Source: an uncultured Eubacteriales bacterium (GTDB lineage Bacteria > Bacillota > Clostridia > Peptostreptococcales > Anaerovoracaceae). From it: a stretch of 64,000 nt of DNA. Location of the stretch: positions 32,144 through 96,143 of the forward strand of contig CACYHR010000017.1 of the NCBI GenBank assembly GCA_902774265.1. The letters are read 5' to 3'. Of the stretch, positions 48,139 through 54,569 are shown piece after piece. The position numbers and the translations under genes are program-made. The notes beneath the pieces were generated by a model. That model had not been told where the DNA came from, did not search any database, and worked only from the letters and a program-made list of their open reading frames with translations. Each line of letters starts with the position of its first letter. Position 1 is the first letter of the stretch.

Positions 48139-48195
48139 TCAGCAAAGACAATATATAACCCTTATTCTTTATTCAAATTTTTTATGGAGGACGTA

Positions 48196-49332
48196 ATGGA
48201 TAAATATTTTATCGGTACTCTTAACAACATTTCCCCTAAGGGTCTCTGCAGACTCACTGACAAGTATGAGCTGACCGAAGACGTTGATAAGGCAAACGGA
48301 ATCATCGTCAGATCATTCAAAATGCATGACATGGATTTCTCCGATGATCTTATGGCTATCGGAAGAGCAGGTGCAGGCGTTAACAACATTCCGCTCGACA
48401 AATGCAGTGAAAAAGGCATCGTAGTATTCAATGCTCCTGGTGCTAACTCCAATGCAGTTAAAGAACTCGCTGTTGCAGGCATGATCATGGGCGCACGCAA
48501 CATGTATGAGGGCATCGCATGGGGACAGACTCTCGAAGGCGATGTAGCTGCCAATGTTGAGAAGGGCAAAAAACAGTTTGCAGGAACAGAGATAGCAGGC
48601 AAGACTCTCGGTATCATCGGTCTCGGCGCTATCGGAGCAAAGATCGCAAATGCTGCTGAAGCTCTCGGTATGACAGTAGTAGGCTACGAAGCATTCACAC
48701 CGCATCCATGCCTGACCGCAGATGTCAAGCTCTGCGACAGCGTAGAGGAAATGGTTCCTATGTGCGACTTCATCTCGATCCACGTTCCTTCACTGCCGAC
48801 AACAAAGGGCATGGTCAACAAGGATCTCATCGCAAAGATGAAGGACGGAGTCATCTTCATGAACTATGCAAGACCTGACCTCATAGTAGTAGACGACGTA
48901 ATCGAGGCTCTTGAGTCCGGCAAGATGAGAAAGTACATGACAGACCTGCTCGAGCCTGAATACATTGGCAAAAAAGGCATCGTTGCAACTCCGCATCTGG
49001 GCGCTTCCACAGCTGAGGCTGAAGAGAACTGCGCTATCATGGCTACAGACCAGCTCATGGATTACCTCGAAAACGGCAACATCGTTAACTCCGTCAACTT
49101 CCCGAGAGTAAGCCTCGAGAAGAGCGGCGCAGAAAGACACTGCTTCCTCCTCAAATCCGAAAAGACAGCTGAGGAGATCGAAGCAAAGATGAAAGAATTC
49201 TACGGCGGCAAGCTGACAGGCATCGCCGGCGCAAAGGTCAGAAACAGCGATTTCGGCTATTTCATCGTTGATGTTGCAGAATCAACAGCACCATTCAGCT
49301 GCGACTGCGTCATCAGGACAAGAGTTCTGTAG
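48196..49332 (+). CDS. serA: D-3-phosphoglycerate dehydrogenase
   Basis: 378 residues from the ATG at 48196, which has GGAGG six bases upstream; an in-frame ATG at 48184 overlaps that site. The NAD-binding loop is IIGLGAIGAKIANAAEALG (near 138-156). Catalytic residues: Arg in NYARPDLI, an acidic residue downstream and His in TPHLGASTAEAEE. A shortened ACT-like C-terminus (HCFLLKSEKTAEEI...) ends the protein. It oxidises 3-phosphoglycerate in the first step of serine synthesis and works with SerC, encoded divergently. Confidence 0.95.
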   Translation: MDKYFIGTLNNISPKGLCRLTDKYELTEDVDKANGIIVRSFKMHDMDFSDDLMAIGRAGAGVNNIPLDKCSEKGIVVFNAPGANSNAVKELAVAGMIMGARNMYEGIAWGQTLEGDVAANVEKGKKQFAGTEIAGKTLGIIGLGAIGAKIANAAEALGMTVVGYEAFTPHPCLTADVKLCDSVEEMVPMCDFISIHVPSLPTTKGMVNKDLIAKMKDGVIFMNYARPDLIVVDDVIEALESGKMRKYMTDLLEPEYIGKKGIVATPHLGASTAEAEENCAIMATDQLMDYLENGNIVNSVNFPRVSLEKSGAERHCFLLKSEKTAEEIEAKMKEFYGGKLTGIAGAKVRNSDFGYFIVDVAESTAPFSCDCVIRTRVL

Positions 49333-49515: not shown

Positions 49516-52227
49516 CTATTTCCTTCTGAATACCAGTATGCTGCCTCCGAAACCTCCGCCTATAAGTCTGACTGCTGCCGTATCCGGTTTAGCCTTGTAT
49601 TCATCAAGCGCTCTCGAAAGACCGTTCTCGTCCACATCAGGAGGCATGACGTTTTTGAGCATGTTTTCCGAACTGCGGCCCGAATAGTTGATGCACTGGA
49701 GGAATCTCTCGACATTTCCGGCCTTGAGAGCCTCGGCTGCCGCAAGCACTCTTTCGTTCTCATCAAAGAAATGTCTTGCCCTGTTAAGCTGCAGCTCTGT
49801 CAGCTCGCCTGCATCAAGCTTTTCACGCAGCACAGGCAGCTGGCGTTTGAACTGCTCGTCATTGAGGTCTCCCAGCCTCTTTACGCCGAGTATCTCCGCC
49901 ACCCTGAACATGTCATCCGGGATCGATGCATAATCATCATCGAGATCGGCATGATCAGACTCCGTGCCTATGACCAGCATTTCCAGTCCTGCAGCATCAA
50001 AATCAAAGTCTATAAGCTCTATCTCAGGCTCCCTGCTGTTAAAATCGATAAGCGCCATCTGCCCGAGACTTATAGCCAGCTGATCCATCAGCCCGCATGG
50101 CTTGCCGTAATAAGCAGACTCTGCAAACTGTCCTATCTTTGCAATCTGTACAGCATCAGCCCTTCCTTCGAAGAATTTTTCGTTTATTATCCGCGCTAAA
50201 AGGATCTCAAAGGCCGCTGATGAGCTGAGTCCGCTTCCAACAGCCACCTCGCTTTTGATATGAGCATCGAATCCTCTGCCGTATGTCTCAAAAGCCCCGA
50301 ACAGATCTACGAATCCGTCAAGTATGCCTGTAACCAGAGCAGCAGTCGTTCCCTTTTCGTAATGGCTGCGGTCCGTCATGCTTACCTCGAAAGGCTCAAA
50401 ACCTTCAGATACGACTCTGATCACATCACGATGGTTATCAGCCACGAGAGCTCTTATCCTGCATGGCGCCGGCGCTACCATAACCTTTCCGCCCTGATGA
50501 TCGGTGTGATTTCCGATTATCTCTATTCTTCCTGTTCCTACGTATTCCTTTACCTTCTGCACCTCTCTGTCATAAGTAAGAAAACCGTTAATCTCTTCCT
50601 CAACATCCGACAGCTGTGTAAATATCGCTGCGCACAATCCCCTTTTAATCAGAGGTTCTATCTCCTGTGTATAAAGTCTGCTGATTTCATCGAGAAACTC
50701 CGCCTCATCAGAGCATTTTTTATAGCCGTATATTTTTTCCGCGCTGAAACAGTGATCCGGGATCCTGCATGAGTATCCGCCGAACTCTGAGAGAACCAGC
50801 GGTTTTTCATCCGCCGCGATATCAAGCGGTCCGGAGTAAATATGATAGCTGTCAACATCGCTTTTTGTCTGCCTGAACCAGCCCGAAGTGCTGTCGATAA
50901 ATCTCGTTTCGTCCAGAGCCCTGAGCCTGTCATACGCAGCGTCTGCATCAAACTGCCCCCATCCCTCATTGAAAATCGTCCAGTAGCATATTGACGGATG
51001 GTTGTAAAGATGCTTTACTGCAACTTCCATCGAGTTCAGAAATATTTCTCTTGTCTCCGGATCGCTGTGCTTTCCGGCATCCGACAGCTTCTGCATGCCA
51101 AGCTTCGCACCTATGACAGGCAGTACTGAATCACGCATATACGAGTAGTCGGAATTGTTTACCATATCCTGGAAAACGACCATTCCAAGCCTGTCACAGT
51201 CATAGTAAAACCTCTCCGGCTCTATCTTCAGATGCTTTCTGAGCGTGTTGAAGCCTAGCCTTTTCATGGCCGTTATATCTGCCGCATACGCTCCGGGACT
51301 TTTCGGAGTGTACAGTCCGTCCTGCCAGTATCCCTGATCGAGAACACCGTTGAAGAAATACGGCTCTCCGTTCAGGCACAGTCTCTTATACCCGTCTTTT
51401 TCCTTTATCGAAAGCGTTCTCAGCGCGAAATATGATCTGACCCTGTCGCTGACCGATGCGTCAAAATCTCCGTCGGTCCACTTCAGCTGTACAGTCTCGC
51501 CCTTCGGAAGCGAGCGCTCTGACTCTATCGTAAATTCATACAGATGCGGATCCTCCGGAGTCCAGTGGTGCGGCCTGTGTATATCGATATGTATCGATGC
51601 GCAGTTTTTTTCAAGTCCCTCTTCTTTTACCAGCCGATGAGTCTCACCGAGCAGCGATATCATTCCCGATGTTATGCCGTAGGCCCGGATCTCGACCCAG
51701 TCGAGGCCGGTATCTATTTTGAGAAAATCGATGTGTTCTTCCGGTACCGGTTCCAGCCAGACGCTCTGCCAGATTCCCGATACAGGCGTATACCACATAC
51801 CGCCGTTATCGTTTTTCTGCTTGCCCCATGGATATTTATGATCGAGTCTGTCCGCAGCCTCGACCCTGATGTGGTTTTCTCCTCCGAAATTAATGAATTC
51901 CGTTACATCAAATGAGAACGGCAGATATCCGCCCTCATGAGTCCCGACATCAGCATTGTTCACATATACATTGGCTATCTGATCTACAGCGCCGAAATGG
52001 AGCAGTACGCGTCTTCCGTCCCATTCTCCGGGCACATCAAAATCCCGCTCATAAACCATAGCTCCGTCAGCGGAAATGCGTCTGCCGATGCCCGAAAGTT
52101 CTGATTCAGGGCAGAACGGAACTATTATCGTTTCATCCTCATTATATATCCATTCCCCGTCCAGGCTCAGCCAGTCCTGTCTCACCATCTGCGGACGAGG
52201 GTAATTATCAGTCCATTTTTCTGTCAT
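49516..52227 (-). CDS. Fused glycoside hydrolase family 2 - galactokinase
   Basis: 903 residues joining two enzymes. Residues 1-~558 are a GH2 hydrolase: jelly-roll (about 20-160), Ig-like domain and TIM barrel, with acid/base Glu421 (IFNEGWGQFD) and probable nucleophile Glu481 (VLSEFGGYS). Residues ~563-903 are a galactokinase: GRIEIIGNHTDHQ (567-577), VAVGSGLSSSAA ATP loop (661-672), catalytic Asp715 (CGLMDQ) and GGGFGGS (890-896). The GH2 part stops near its usual end (TYDREVQKV); the kinase part lacks its normal first ~30 residues. The chimera would release galactose from a beta-galactoside and phosphorylate it. Beta-glucuronidase-type specificity of the GH2 half cannot be excluded. Confidence 0.9.
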   Translation of the reverse strand: MTEKWTDNYPRPQMVRQDWLSLDGEWIYNEDETIIVPFCPESELSGIGRRISADGAMVYERDFDVPGEWDGRRVLLHFGAVDQIANVYVNNADVGTHEGGYLPFSFDVTEFINFGGENHIRVEAADRLDHKYPWGKQKNDNGGMWYTPVSGIWQSVWLEPVPEEHIDFLKIDTGLDWVEIRAYGITSGMISLLGETHRLVKEEGLEKNCASIHIDIHRPHHWTPEDPHLYEFTIESERSLPKGETVQLKWTDGDFDASVSDRVRSYFALRTLSIKEKDGYKRLCLNGEPYFFNGVLDQGYWQDGLYTPKSPGAYAADITAMKRLGFNTLRKHLKIEPERFYYDCDRLGMVVFQDMVNNSDYSYMRDSVLPVIGAKLGMQKLSDAGKHSDPETREIFLNSMEVAVKHLYNHPSICYWTIFNEGWGQFDADAAYDRLRALDETRFIDSTSGWFRQTKSDVDSYHIYSGPLDIAADEKPLVLSEFGGYSCRIPDHCFSAEKIYGYKKCSDEAEFLDEISRLYTQEIEPLIKRGLCAAIFTQLSDVEEEINGFLTYDREVQKVKEYVGTGRIEIIGNHTDHQGGKVMVAPAPCRIRALVADNHRDVIRVVSEGFEPFEVSMTDRSHYEKGTTAALVTGILDGFVDLFGAFETYGRGFDAHIKSEVAVGSGLSSSAAFEILLARIINEKFFEGRADAVQIAKIGQFAESAYYGKPCGLMDQLAISLGQMALIDFNSREPEIELIDFDFDAAGLEMLVIGTESDHADLDDDYASIPDDMFRVAEILGVKRLGDLNDEQFKRQLPVLREKLDAGELTELQLNRARHFFDENERVLAAAEALKAGNVERFLQCINYSGRSSENMLKNVMPPDVDENGLSRALDEYKAKPDTAAVRLIGGGFGGSILVFRRK

Positions 52228-52640: not shown

Positions 52641-54569
52641 TCATTTCCTGCTTTTTCTGGCTTCATGTCTGCCTTTGATCGGATTGATCGGCGTCAGCTT
52701 AACATATTCCTCAACAGGAGCATCATTAAGACACAGCTCAATGATCTTCCTTCCCAGCGGATCGAGTTCAGGAACCATGAACTGTTTGAGTTCCTCTTTG
52801 AAGAAATCAGTCAGGATCTTCGAGCATACATCGTAGCCGTCCTCACCCAGCTTGGACTGAAGCTCCGGACGCAGGAATGTACGTCTGATAAACTGACCGT
52901 CGATCTTCATCTCATCAAGAGAATATCCGAAGAGAGGACATCTGGCTTCAACCAGGTGAGCCGCCTTGACTGTTCCGCTTCGTCTCGCGAGATACTCACG
53001 CGTGATCCATTCCGCCTTGAATCCGATCTCATACGCTCCGATATGCTGGTTCGGAACCAGAATATTGAGCGTATTCGGTGTTTCGATGATCTGTTTCAGC
53101 AGCATGTTGGCCTGAGTGACCTTGAGACCTGTTGCGAACGGCCAGTATGAACCGACTCCCTCAGCCGAAAGACCGCTGCCCGGTGAATTCTCAGCGATAG
53201 ACGGGTTCTTGAATCCGCGCGGCGAAACCAGTCTCCACAGCCATGCAAGGGCAGGAGGAACGATCTGTACGAATCCCATGATCCCGTAATTCGGATCCTT
53301 TCTTGTGCTCGGCGGCATCCTTACTCCGAAAGATCTGATATCGACCTCAAGCGCCTCATCTCCCGGTATGATATCATCTATCATTTCACGCGGAATGATG
53401 ACCCTCGGATTGCTGCACGGCTTGCCGTTTGACTCTATCGTATGTTCCCAGATCAGACATGTTGCGCCCGGCGTACCGTCTATGTTAAAGAATTCAAGCG
53501 GCTCATCCGGGTGTATGCTTATCCTCTCATAGAGAGGGATGTTGCCGTAATAATTGTCGCCGTCGACTCTGAGGAACCATCCGTTCTCAGCATCAGTTAT
53601 TACCAGTTTGCCCGAAGTATCCTGCATATCCTTATGAGCCATGACCATATCGTCAGCTATAGGGAAGATATCGCAGGTATCGCCCAGACTGATATAGAAT
53701 TCCTCACCTGTCTGAGTATGCCTTGCAAGAAGGACTCTGTTATCCGCCTCGCGTCTTATCTCCTCAAGCATCTCACTTTTGCCGCCGCCCGAAGCGCCCT
53801 CGTGCATGAACACCAACTCGTTTTCGTACGGTGTCTGCAGGAGTGCGGCAGATGCGTGGTTGGTGATCCAGCCCTCATTCTCGCCTATATCAAGCAGCAT
53901 CGAGAATACACCTTTTTTTGCGCTTGGTCCCGGATACAGATTGTATGAGAACACCTCATGCAGTTCCTTTGATCTGCAGTGAACAACAGCCTGTTTGCCG
54001 CCGAAATACGTATGTCTGAACGGCGGAGCCACATAAATTATACCGCGCGGTTCATATTCCTTCTTCAGCTCGCCTATCCCCGTAAAATCCTGGATATTGG
54101 CAAGAGCATAAGCAAAGAAAGCCGCATTCGCAGGGCATACGACCAGTGCCGGATAGCCGTGGTATTTCCCGCCTATACTGACAGGCATAACGATCAGATG
54201 CTGCTCTGCCAGCCAGTTCATCGTAGCAGCTCTGAGTTCGCCGAAATCAGTTCCCCATACATCGGTATATCTCGGTTTATCGGTCGGAAGGTCATCTCCT
54301 ATGTACATGCAGTGAGGATCTCTTCTCCTCATGTACTCCTCGGTGAAATTAACAGATGATCCGTTCTTGCATCTGACGACCTCTGCCTCCTGTACATAGC
54401 CTTTGCCCGGAACAGTATATCCCACAATATGTACACTTCCGCCCGAAGTACCGAAGCACAGTTCATACAGCTCCTCCTTGCTGGCCGGGTAATAGATATT
54501 CGGGCAGGCCGCAAGTGCCGTCCTCAGATCGGCAGGTAGTTTTATCTTTTCCAAATAATCGTTTTTCAT
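52641..54569 (-). CDS. DUF4914 family protein with PEP-carboxykinase-like P-loop
   Basis: 642 residues. A nucleotide-binding loop, HEGASGGGKSEMLEE (Gly258-Ser265), lies mid-protein, preceded by LVVCPANAAFFAYALANIQDFTG and FGGKQAVVHCRS. The layout is that of the DUF4914 family, which looks distantly related to PEP carboxykinase-type kinases (P-loop GASGGGKS in a large C-terminal-half domain). Later conserved parts include FNIDGTPGATCLIWEHTIES and NPRVIIPREMI. I infer an ATP- or GTP-dependent phosphotransferase; the substrate is unknown. Transcription probably runs into the hairpin element and its terminator. Confidence 0.82.
   Translation of the reverse strand: MKNDYLEKIKLPADLRTALAACPNIYYPASKEELYELCFGTSGGSVHIVGYTVPGKGYVQEAEVVRCKNGSSVNFTEEYMRRRDPHCMYIGDDLPTDKPRYTDVWGTDFGELRAATMNWLAEQHLIVMPVSIGGKYHGYPALVVCPANAAFFAYALANIQDFTGIGELKKEYEPRGIIYVAPPFRHTYFGGKQAVVHCRSKELHEVFSYNLYPGPSAKKGVFSMLLDIGENEGWITNHASAALLQTPYENELVFMHEGASGGGKSEMLEEIRREADNRVLLARHTQTGEEFYISLGDTCDIFPIADDMVMAHKDMQDTSGKLVITDAENGWFLRVDGDNYYGNIPLYERISIHPDEPLEFFNIDGTPGATCLIWEHTIESNGKPCSNPRVIIPREMIDDIIPGDEALEVDIRSFGVRMPPSTRKDPNYGIMGFVQIVPPALAWLWRLVSPRGFKNPSIAENSPGSGLSAEGVGSYWPFATGLKVTQANMLLKQIIETPNTLNILVPNQHIGAYEIGFKAEWITREYLARRSGTVKAAHLVEARCPLFGYSLDEMKIDGQFIRRTFLRPELQSKLGEDGYDVCSKILTDFFKEELKQFMVPELDPLGRKIIELCLNDAPVEEYVKLTPINPIKGRHEARKSRK

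Follow-up and report, generated by a model that had tools for sequence, protein, structure and literature searches.

Does a single gene in a gut bacterium encode an enzyme that both frees a sugar and phosphorylates it, or is it the debris of two neighboring genes? The question is raised by an open reading frame on the minus strand of a stretch of 64,000 nucleotides, here called the window, from an uncultured Eubacteriales bacterium (assembly GCA_902774265.1, contig CACYHR010000017.1, positions 32,144 to 96,143). The frame runs stop-free from 52227 to 49516 and encodes 903 amino acids, with a GH2 glycosidase at the N-terminal end and a galactokinase-like GHMP kinase at the C-terminal end. Comparing sequences and structure models across its relatives (G and L mark our genome and locus handles), we favor, with somewhat better than even confidence, a stable bifunctional enzyme in which a cytosolic GH2 exo-galactofuranosidase would feed the galactokinase of its own chain.

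A conserved junction between two domains

Translation and Pfam bear out the original prediction of a GH2 hydrolase and a galactokinase in one frame at 49516-52227. Its motif positions are also correct, namely Glu421 (NEGWGQ), Glu481 (SEFGG), GNHTDHQ at 572, GSGLSSSAA at 664, Asp715 (MDQ) and GGGFGGS at 890, and the junction that it quoted does start at residue 553. The first half matches Glyco_hydro_2_N (54-158), Glyco_hydro_2_C (312-449) and Glyco_hydro_2_N2 above the curated Pfam cut-offs, with the middle domain, Glyco_hydro_2, slightly below (22.6 against 23); with these domains and both catalytic Glu residues, the protein is a member of family GH2. The second half matches GalKase_gal_bdg at 566-595 (profile positions 18-47 of 49, score 30 against a cut-off of 23.1) and GHMP_kinases_N at 647-722 (50.4 against 22.3). 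The features are as follows.

49516-52227, minus: fusion gene, GH2 glycosidase then GHMP/galactokinase-like kinase (translation, Pfam); architecture found in 16 of 47 genus genomes
50551-52227, minus: GH2 half, residues 1-559; closest solved structures 7sf2 and 9j6m/9j6n, the latter a beta-D-galactofuranosidase (Pfam, structure comparison)
50965-50967, minus: Glu421, predicted acid/base in an NE motif, aligned to E464 of Streptomyces ORF1110; kept in 16 of 16
50785-50787, minus: Glu481, predicted nucleophile, aligned to E530 of ORF1110; kept in 16 of 16
50617-50619, minus: Thr537 in (F/Y)TQ..DVE, read as the Thr replacing the -1 subsite Trp in GH2_18/19 (alignment)
50515-50571, minus: junction, residues 553-571 (alignment of 16 sequences, AlphaFold model)
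49519-50550, minus: kinase half, residues 560-903; closest solved structures are galactokinases (Pfam, structure comparison)
50494-50514, minus: GNHTDHQ sugar-binding motif, residues 572-578 (alignment)
50212-50238, minus: GSGLSSSAA ATP-binding loop, residues 664-672 (alignment)
50083-50085, minus: Asp715, predicted catalytic base of the kinase (alignment)
49540-49560, minus: GGGFGGS motif, residues 890-896, with the chain end 7 residues on (alignment)
48184-49332, plus: 2-hydroxyacid dehydrogenase gene flanking the fusion gene, common to fused and unfused GH2 loci of the genus

In a PF10509 profile search of the 47 genomes of the window's genus, 16 proved to carry the fused form and 18 a separate galactokinase. 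The fused set comprises 16 distinct sequences, about 62-70% identical to the window protein and drawn from several assembly projects, of which 13 are complete; the copy in G009 meets a contig end after residue 624, that in G001 lacks the first 412 residues, and that in G007 (L126) is interrupted by a frame break around residue 875, close to the C-terminus of the kinase, which may be a sequencing error or decay. All carriers are multi-contig draft genomes, and the named ones are metagenome-assembled genomes (MAGs) or assemblies of uncultured organisms: Mogibacterium sp., Candidatus Crickella caballi (Crickella is placed in Anaerovoracaceae by NCBI) and Clostridiales or Clostridia bacteria. Among 197 sampled family genomes the GH2-kinase fusion is confined to this genus, and among 398 sampled phylum genomes it appears in the window's own genome only.

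Looking for the same junction in related genomes had been proposed as a check, and one gap-free junction runs through all 16 distinct sequences, from YDR through GRIE to GNHTDHQGG, with the letters GTGRIE in 15 and ATGRIE in G060. The junction is as abrupt as described, the end of the GH2 half entering the first kinase strand without a linker. The catalytic positions that we checked are kept in every fused sequence covering them, with the sole exception of the ATP loop in G060, which reads GGGTSSSAA for GSGLSSSAA.

Purifying selection acts on the kinase half as it does on the GH2 half. We estimated ratios of nonsynonymous to synonymous change (dN/dS) by the Nei-Gojobori method for eight sequence pairs, each half separately; pairs beyond those quoted here were saturated or nearly so. 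For the kinase half, dN/dS was 0.016 (G014/G001, dS 0.46), 0.076 (G025/G021, dS 1.0), 0.046 (G070/G030, dS 1.4) and 0.059 (G027/G062, dS 2.6). The first three of these pairs gave 0.029 (dS 0.59), 0.076 (dS 0.73) and 0.039 (dS 2.0) for the GH2 half, which in G027/G062 is saturated at silent sites; two further GH2 values were 0.034 and 0.058, at dS 1.9-2.5.

Structure prediction gave confident folds. AlphaFold modeled the whole chain (63 rows) with a mean predicted local distance difference test score (pLDDT) of 90.4 and a predicted template modeling score (pTM) of 0.89, and the kinase half alone (39 rows) with values of 92.2 and 0.88. A predicted strand at 560-571 spans the junction, where successive blocks across residues 551-580 have a pLDDT of 94, 92 and 90. 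Modeling of the truncated kinase, another proposed check, therefore gave a confident model and no sign of failure to fold, although activity is beyond the reach of such models. Taken across the genus, the fusion looks like a conserved working chimera rather than a genome accident.

What the two halves resemble

The original prediction implied a beta-galactosidase, but the GH2 half groups with GH2 furanosidases, both by its nearest structures and by a Thr in place of the -1 subsite Trp. Its best sequence matches in the Protein Data Bank (PDB) are 7sf2 (1.6e-96), 9j6n (3.7e-88) and 7xyr (6.3e-53), and Foldseek ranks 9j6m, 7sf2 and 9j6n at about 1e-52 and 7xyr at 5.9e-43, with the next match at 5.5e-32. 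PMC12243196 assigns 9j6m and 7xyr to GH2_18/GH2_19 (7xyr to GH2_19), does not mention 7sf2 and describes the Thr-for-Trp replacement in this furanosidase group. Thr537 of the window protein is kept in all 16 fused sequences. We take this residue to occupy the -1 Trp position, from our own alignment and from known GH2 sequences.

The most informative relative is ORF1110 of Streptomyces sp. JHA19 (9j6m/9j6n, GH2_18), which shares the GH2 fold, both catalytic Glu residues and the Thr, and is 32% identical to the window protein. According to PMC4560423, it is specific for beta-D-galactofuranose (beta-D-Galf) and inactive on pyranoside p-nitrophenyl substrates, including beta-D-Gal, and its mutants E464A and E530A retain 2.6% and 15.2% of activity. 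Among the eight acidic residues reported there to leave at most 15.5% activity when changed to Ala, seven are identical here (D201, D330, E405, D423, E464, E530 and E594) and the eighth, D500, is aligned to Arg; with an offset of 23 applied to the published numbering, 17 of 18 sites carried the letter that was expected. ORF1110 differs in lacking a kinase and in bearing both a signal peptide and an AbfB domain (PMC4560423). By eye, the N-terminus of the window protein has no obvious signal peptide.

The GH2 half thus probably belongs to the furanosidase group GH2_18/GH2_19 and is most like GH2_18, although sequence comparison of this kind does not separate Galf from arabinofuranose (Araf) as the substrate. 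We rejected a LacZ-type beta-galactosidase or a beta-glucuronidase on the Thr for Trp and on NCBIfam equivalog scores far below their cut-offs (99.3 against 999 and 98.8 against 544); these are the only names under which NCBIfam models match this furanosidase-like group. Because the GH2 half falls among the furanosidases, the beta-galactosidase assay proposed in the original prediction would probably be negative.

The kinase half is probably a galactokinase, judging from motifs, models and genomic context. In a structure comparison of its model, the best 50 of 200 matches (E at most 0.001) are all galactokinases, with a template modeling (TM) score by target of at most 0.79. Canonical galactokinases (1pie, human GALK1, 1s4e) share its fold, the three motif regions and the active-site Arg and Asp, but are only 22-28% identical. 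Closer are the GNHTDH-type galactokinases of Bacillota, which share the motifs at about 35-45% identity in genome searches; they differ in being separate genes of 362-487 amino acids, whereas the fused kinases stop sooner at the C-terminus and make up a clade of their own. Pfam GHMP_kinases_C has no match in the window protein at E 0.1, and none at 1e-5 in the separate relatives of L127 and L237.

The claim that some 30 N-terminal kinase residues are missing depends on the comparison. It holds against most separate kinases, since residues ahead of the Gly-Arg number 7 to 119 in 26 separate members of the same subfamily and at least 45 in 20 of them; it fails against those of L226, L236 and L237, which have only 7-10. 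At the other end, a feature absent from the original prediction, the 13 complete fused kinases all terminate within 3 residues of one place, sooner than their separate relatives do.

Separate GNHTDH-type kinases adjoin galT or lie one gene away from it in 11 of 21 context loci, six of the 11 being from the window's genus. Three adjoin a gene of our cluster 28, whose member in L165 we read as an NAD-dependent epimerase, and the one in L163 adjoins a melibiase. The window's genome (G000; 3.26 Mb, 110 contigs, 90.8% complete) itself encodes a 448-residue kinase of this subfamily beside galT (L127 7955-9301, contig C2). The start of that gene is overlapped by a frame at L127:5323-7986 with PnrA-like substrate-binding and calcineurin-like phosphoesterase domains; a Bmp-domain protein likewise adjoins the separate kinase in L176.

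Separate galactokinases, origin and rival explanations

Fused and separate kinases have a nearly complementary distribution. Both occur in two of the 47 genus genomes (G000 and G009), the fused form alone in 14, the separate form alone in 16 and neither in 15. Put differently, the search turned up a separate galactokinase in two of the 16 fused genomes, in 14 of the 15 with an unfused GH2 gene and in two of the remaining 16; the unfused-GH2 genome without one, G002, is 79% complete. The contrast between fused and unfused-GH2 genomes (Fisher p 7e-6) is uncorrected for kinship and overstates independence because the carriers share descent, so that there are far fewer than 31 independent cases. 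As for the two genomes with both, the contig that bears the separate kinase measures 95 kb in G000 and 3.9 kb in G009; the G009 assembly is 4% contaminated, and its separate kinase may have been binned there in error. galT is present in eight fused genomes, six of which yielded no galactokinase besides the fusion. The best reading of these sequence data is that the fused kinase substitutes for the separate galactokinase in most carriers.

Separate GH2 and galK genes in relatives, together with reads showing an assembly join, had been named as a finding that would speak against a real fusion. Such separate genes exist in 14 of the 15 unfused-GH2 relatives, but there the unfused GH2 genes are probably derived from fused ones. 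A tree of GH2 sequences gathers the 15 unfused genes of the genus in one clade (100/100), nested among the fused genes and grouped with those of G021, G025, G070 and G030 at 98/93; a single fused clade is not rejected by the approximately unbiased (AU) test (p 0.12). Upstream genes common to L028, L029, L125 and the unfused loci agree with this nesting. Fused and unfused genes also share their chromosomal place beside the 2-hydroxyacid dehydrogenase gene, mostly with class-V aminotransferase and D-alanyl-D-alanine carboxypeptidase genes as well in loci that extend far enough. Because the unfused genes nest among fused ones and occupy the same place, the genus probably had the fusion from its common ancestor, and the kinase half was lost later. 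In our quick tree, the 15 fused kinases form one clade (Shimodaira-Hasegawa-like approximate likelihood ratio test 97) that sits on a stem of 0.96 changes per site, outside the whole set of 41 separate kinases of the GNHTDH type. On this ground we set aside derivation from the genus's own separate galactokinase.

In the account that we prefer, small galactofuranosides would be imported into the cell, where the GH2 exo-furanosidase, a member of the galactofuranosidase/arabinofuranosidase group, would remove terminal beta-D-galactofuranose. The released sugar would convert spontaneously to galactopyranose, which the GHMP kinase at the C-terminal end of the chain would phosphorylate with ATP; in carriers with galT, the resulting galactose 1-phosphate would pass into the Leloir pathway. 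The kinase would have been joined once to the GH2 C-terminus at this chromosomal place, would have displaced the separate galactokinase in most carriers and was probably lost again in the clade of 15 species, 14 of which have a separate galactokinase.

Several results sit uneasily with this account. The top PDB sequence match, 7sf2, is deposited as a beta-galactosidase, and GH2_18/19 includes alpha-L-arabinofuranosidases too (PMC12243196). The kinase falls below the cut-offs of all five listed NCBIfam galactokinase equivalogs (best 141.7 against 385; 120.4 against 226.65), as do the three separate GNHTDH-type relatives that we tested. Its sugar motif has Asn where aligned canonical galactokinases have Glu, a residue that contacts O6 of galactose. 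After GGGFGGS, only 7-10 residues follow in 13 of 13 complete fused copies, compared with 32-53 in the 26 separate kinases. The kinase tree is a quick one, with a long-branch warning for the fused rows and the canonical outgroup. PF01087 found no galT in eight of the 16 fused genomes (G060, G062, G027, G035, G021, G030, G070 and G025), of which G060, G035, G021 and G030 are 92-95% complete. A search for an alternative uridylyltransferase with PF01704 gave no match in the 47 genus genomes, nor in any control genome, and so carries no weight either way.

Some of these points would fit a working fusion for L-arabinose, with the GH2 half an alpha-L-arabinofuranosidase and the kinase shifted to L-arabinose 1-kinase or another sugar 1-kinase: both glycosidase activities occur within GH2_18/19 (PMC12243196), and the long stem, the Asn for Glu and the eight galT-negative genomes are consistent with a changed substrate. 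We nevertheless consider it rather unlikely, given the separate GNHTDH-type kinases at or near galT, the one beside a melibiase, a GH2 gene adjacent to a canonical galactokinase (L223, 425.9 against 385) and the six galT-bearing genomes with no other galactokinase found. L-arabinose isomerase occurs in only 3 of 16 fused genomes and 5 of the 47 in the genus, which speaks against the ordinary arabinose route only. Similarly, the absence of C-terminal residues that separate relatives have, the frame break in G007 and the altered ATP loop in G060 could mean that only one half is active, with a working hydrolase and a shortened kinase that is structural or regulatory, or the reverse. This seems improbable to us in view of kinase motifs and an Asp715 that are kept wherever covered, bar the G060 loop, a dN/dS as low as that of the hydrolase, 14 of 16 carriers with no separate kinase found and a kinase half that is modeled confidently by itself. 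The original prediction had left the choice between a working chimera and the scar of a deletion between two linked genes. The draft state of the carriers, the named ones from MAG or uncultured-organism assemblies, is what an assembly join or a recent scar would have in its favor, but we rejected both as scarcely credible: the same junction recurs in 16 distinct sequences, about 62-70% identical to the window protein, from several projects, with catalytic residues kept and dN/dS low, all of which favors the chimera.

Coupled genes in relatives and a candidate pathway

Genomic neighbors elsewhere in the family support a coupling of GH2 and galactokinase. Outside the genus, 11 family genomes have a GH2 match at E below 1e-90, and in four of them the two genes are neighbors on the same strand: G592, G626, G510, where they overlap by 4 bp, and G470, where the overlap is 20 bp if the first possible start is used. 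The neighbor in G470 is the canonical galactokinase of L223 mentioned above; it lies in a compact minus-strand run (L223:4566-13537) of GH36-like, MFS_2, MFS_1, GH2, canonical galactokinase and hexokinase-like genes. A major facilitator superfamily (MFS) gene is immediately upstream of GH2 in 37 of 83 loci; the upstream sequence reaches 1 kb or more in 80 of the 83, and some genomes are represented by two loci. An MFS domain is even fused N-terminally to the same GH2 family at L221:7422-10421 (G592, 999 amino acids) and L075:3627-6668 (1013 amino acids), and in a third case, L222:7002-8858 (G626), that is cut by a contig end; the fusions of G592 and G626 lie directly downstream of galactokinase. 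Across the 47 genus genomes, MFS (counted at E below 1e-60, with a weak G061 match excluded) and GH2 occur together in 29, GH2 alone in three (G000, G062 and G027), MFS alone in two and neither in 13 (Fisher p 3.5e-7, kinship uncorrected).

A second glycosidase, unrelated to the first, has also been joined to galactokinase in this family. In one genus, G502 (L285:2585-6019, 1144 amino acids) and G576 (L284:5031-8486, 1151 amino acids) encode a GH36 alpha-galactosidase and a galactokinase in one frame, 82% identical over the full length and the sole full-query matches among the matches listed in a search of 349 family genomes. Like the GH2 fusion, these have the glycosidase first, and the kinase is joined about 8 residues before GR(V/I); they differ in the hydrolase family, in kinases that are canonical (545.9 and 536.1 against a cut-off of 385) and in the presence of the C-terminal GHMP domain (GHMP_kinases_C). 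Both adjoin an MFS-like gene (454 amino acids, by eye). We rejected G727 as a third example, as an in-frame TAA immediately precedes the ATG and the genes abut; in G568, the GH36 and galactokinase genes overlap by 4 bp. Additionally, G578 has an aldose 1-epimerase and a GNHTDH-type kinase in one contig-cut frame (L225:8946-10871, 641 amino acids), possibly an error in a single genome, whereas G646 (L226) encodes the same two separately, in genes that overlap by 4 bp. Because the GH36-galactokinase pairing occurs in the same family, linkage of a glycosidase to galactokinase may have been favored more than once.

Together with the MFS genes that adjoin or are fused to the same hydrolase in relatives, the fusion suggests a specific candidate pathway. 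An MFS importer of small galactofuranosides, the GH2 enzyme as a cytosolic exo-galactofuranosidase and galactokinase may form an undescribed intracellular galactofuranose-salvage pathway in gut Clostridia, with the fusion as its catalytic core and its parts fused pairwise by lineage (MFS-GH2 in three genomes, GH2-kinase in 16). More broadly, the family would repeatedly join galactokinase to a substrate-producing enzyme (GH2 here, GH36 in two genomes and perhaps a mutarotase in one). We offer this broader proposal tentatively, at a little short of even confidence. Three findings pull against such a coupling, and with it against the account that we prefer: no kinase lies beside GH2 in any of 68 loci (L035-L102, flanks of at most 5 kb), MFS is on a different contig from GH2 in all 28 fused or unfused genus genomes with both, and the genome that holds the window yielded no MFS match. 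A BLAST comparison against a small reference set saw no shared galactose gene around the genus MFS genes.

Galactofuranose is found in microbial and fungal glycans and is not known from mammals; little is known of its intracellular use by gut bacteria. The fusion of a glycosidase with a sugar kinase as a general kind is already known from RgAgaSK of Ruminococcus gnavus E1, the only natural example known to us from print. Like the window protein, it is a single chain of limited spread among gut Bacillota; its glycosidase is linked to an ATP-dependent sugar kinase, but it differs in being a GH36 alpha-galactosidase with a sucrose kinase that acts, according to PMC7688924, on glucose and sucrose and not on the released galactose. 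The same paper reports similar kinetic parameters for whole AgaSK and its separated domains. The kinase of the GH2 fusion, unlike that of AgaSK, would act on the exact sugar freed by its hydrolase, so that freed galactose would be trapped at once as galactose 1-phosphate. Among the titles and abstract beginnings listed in our searches of an open-access library, which covered neither subscription papers nor preprints, none describes a GH2-galactokinase fusion.

Upstream of the fusion gene in the window, on the same strand, a 642-residue protein (52641-54569) is a full-length match to DUF4914.

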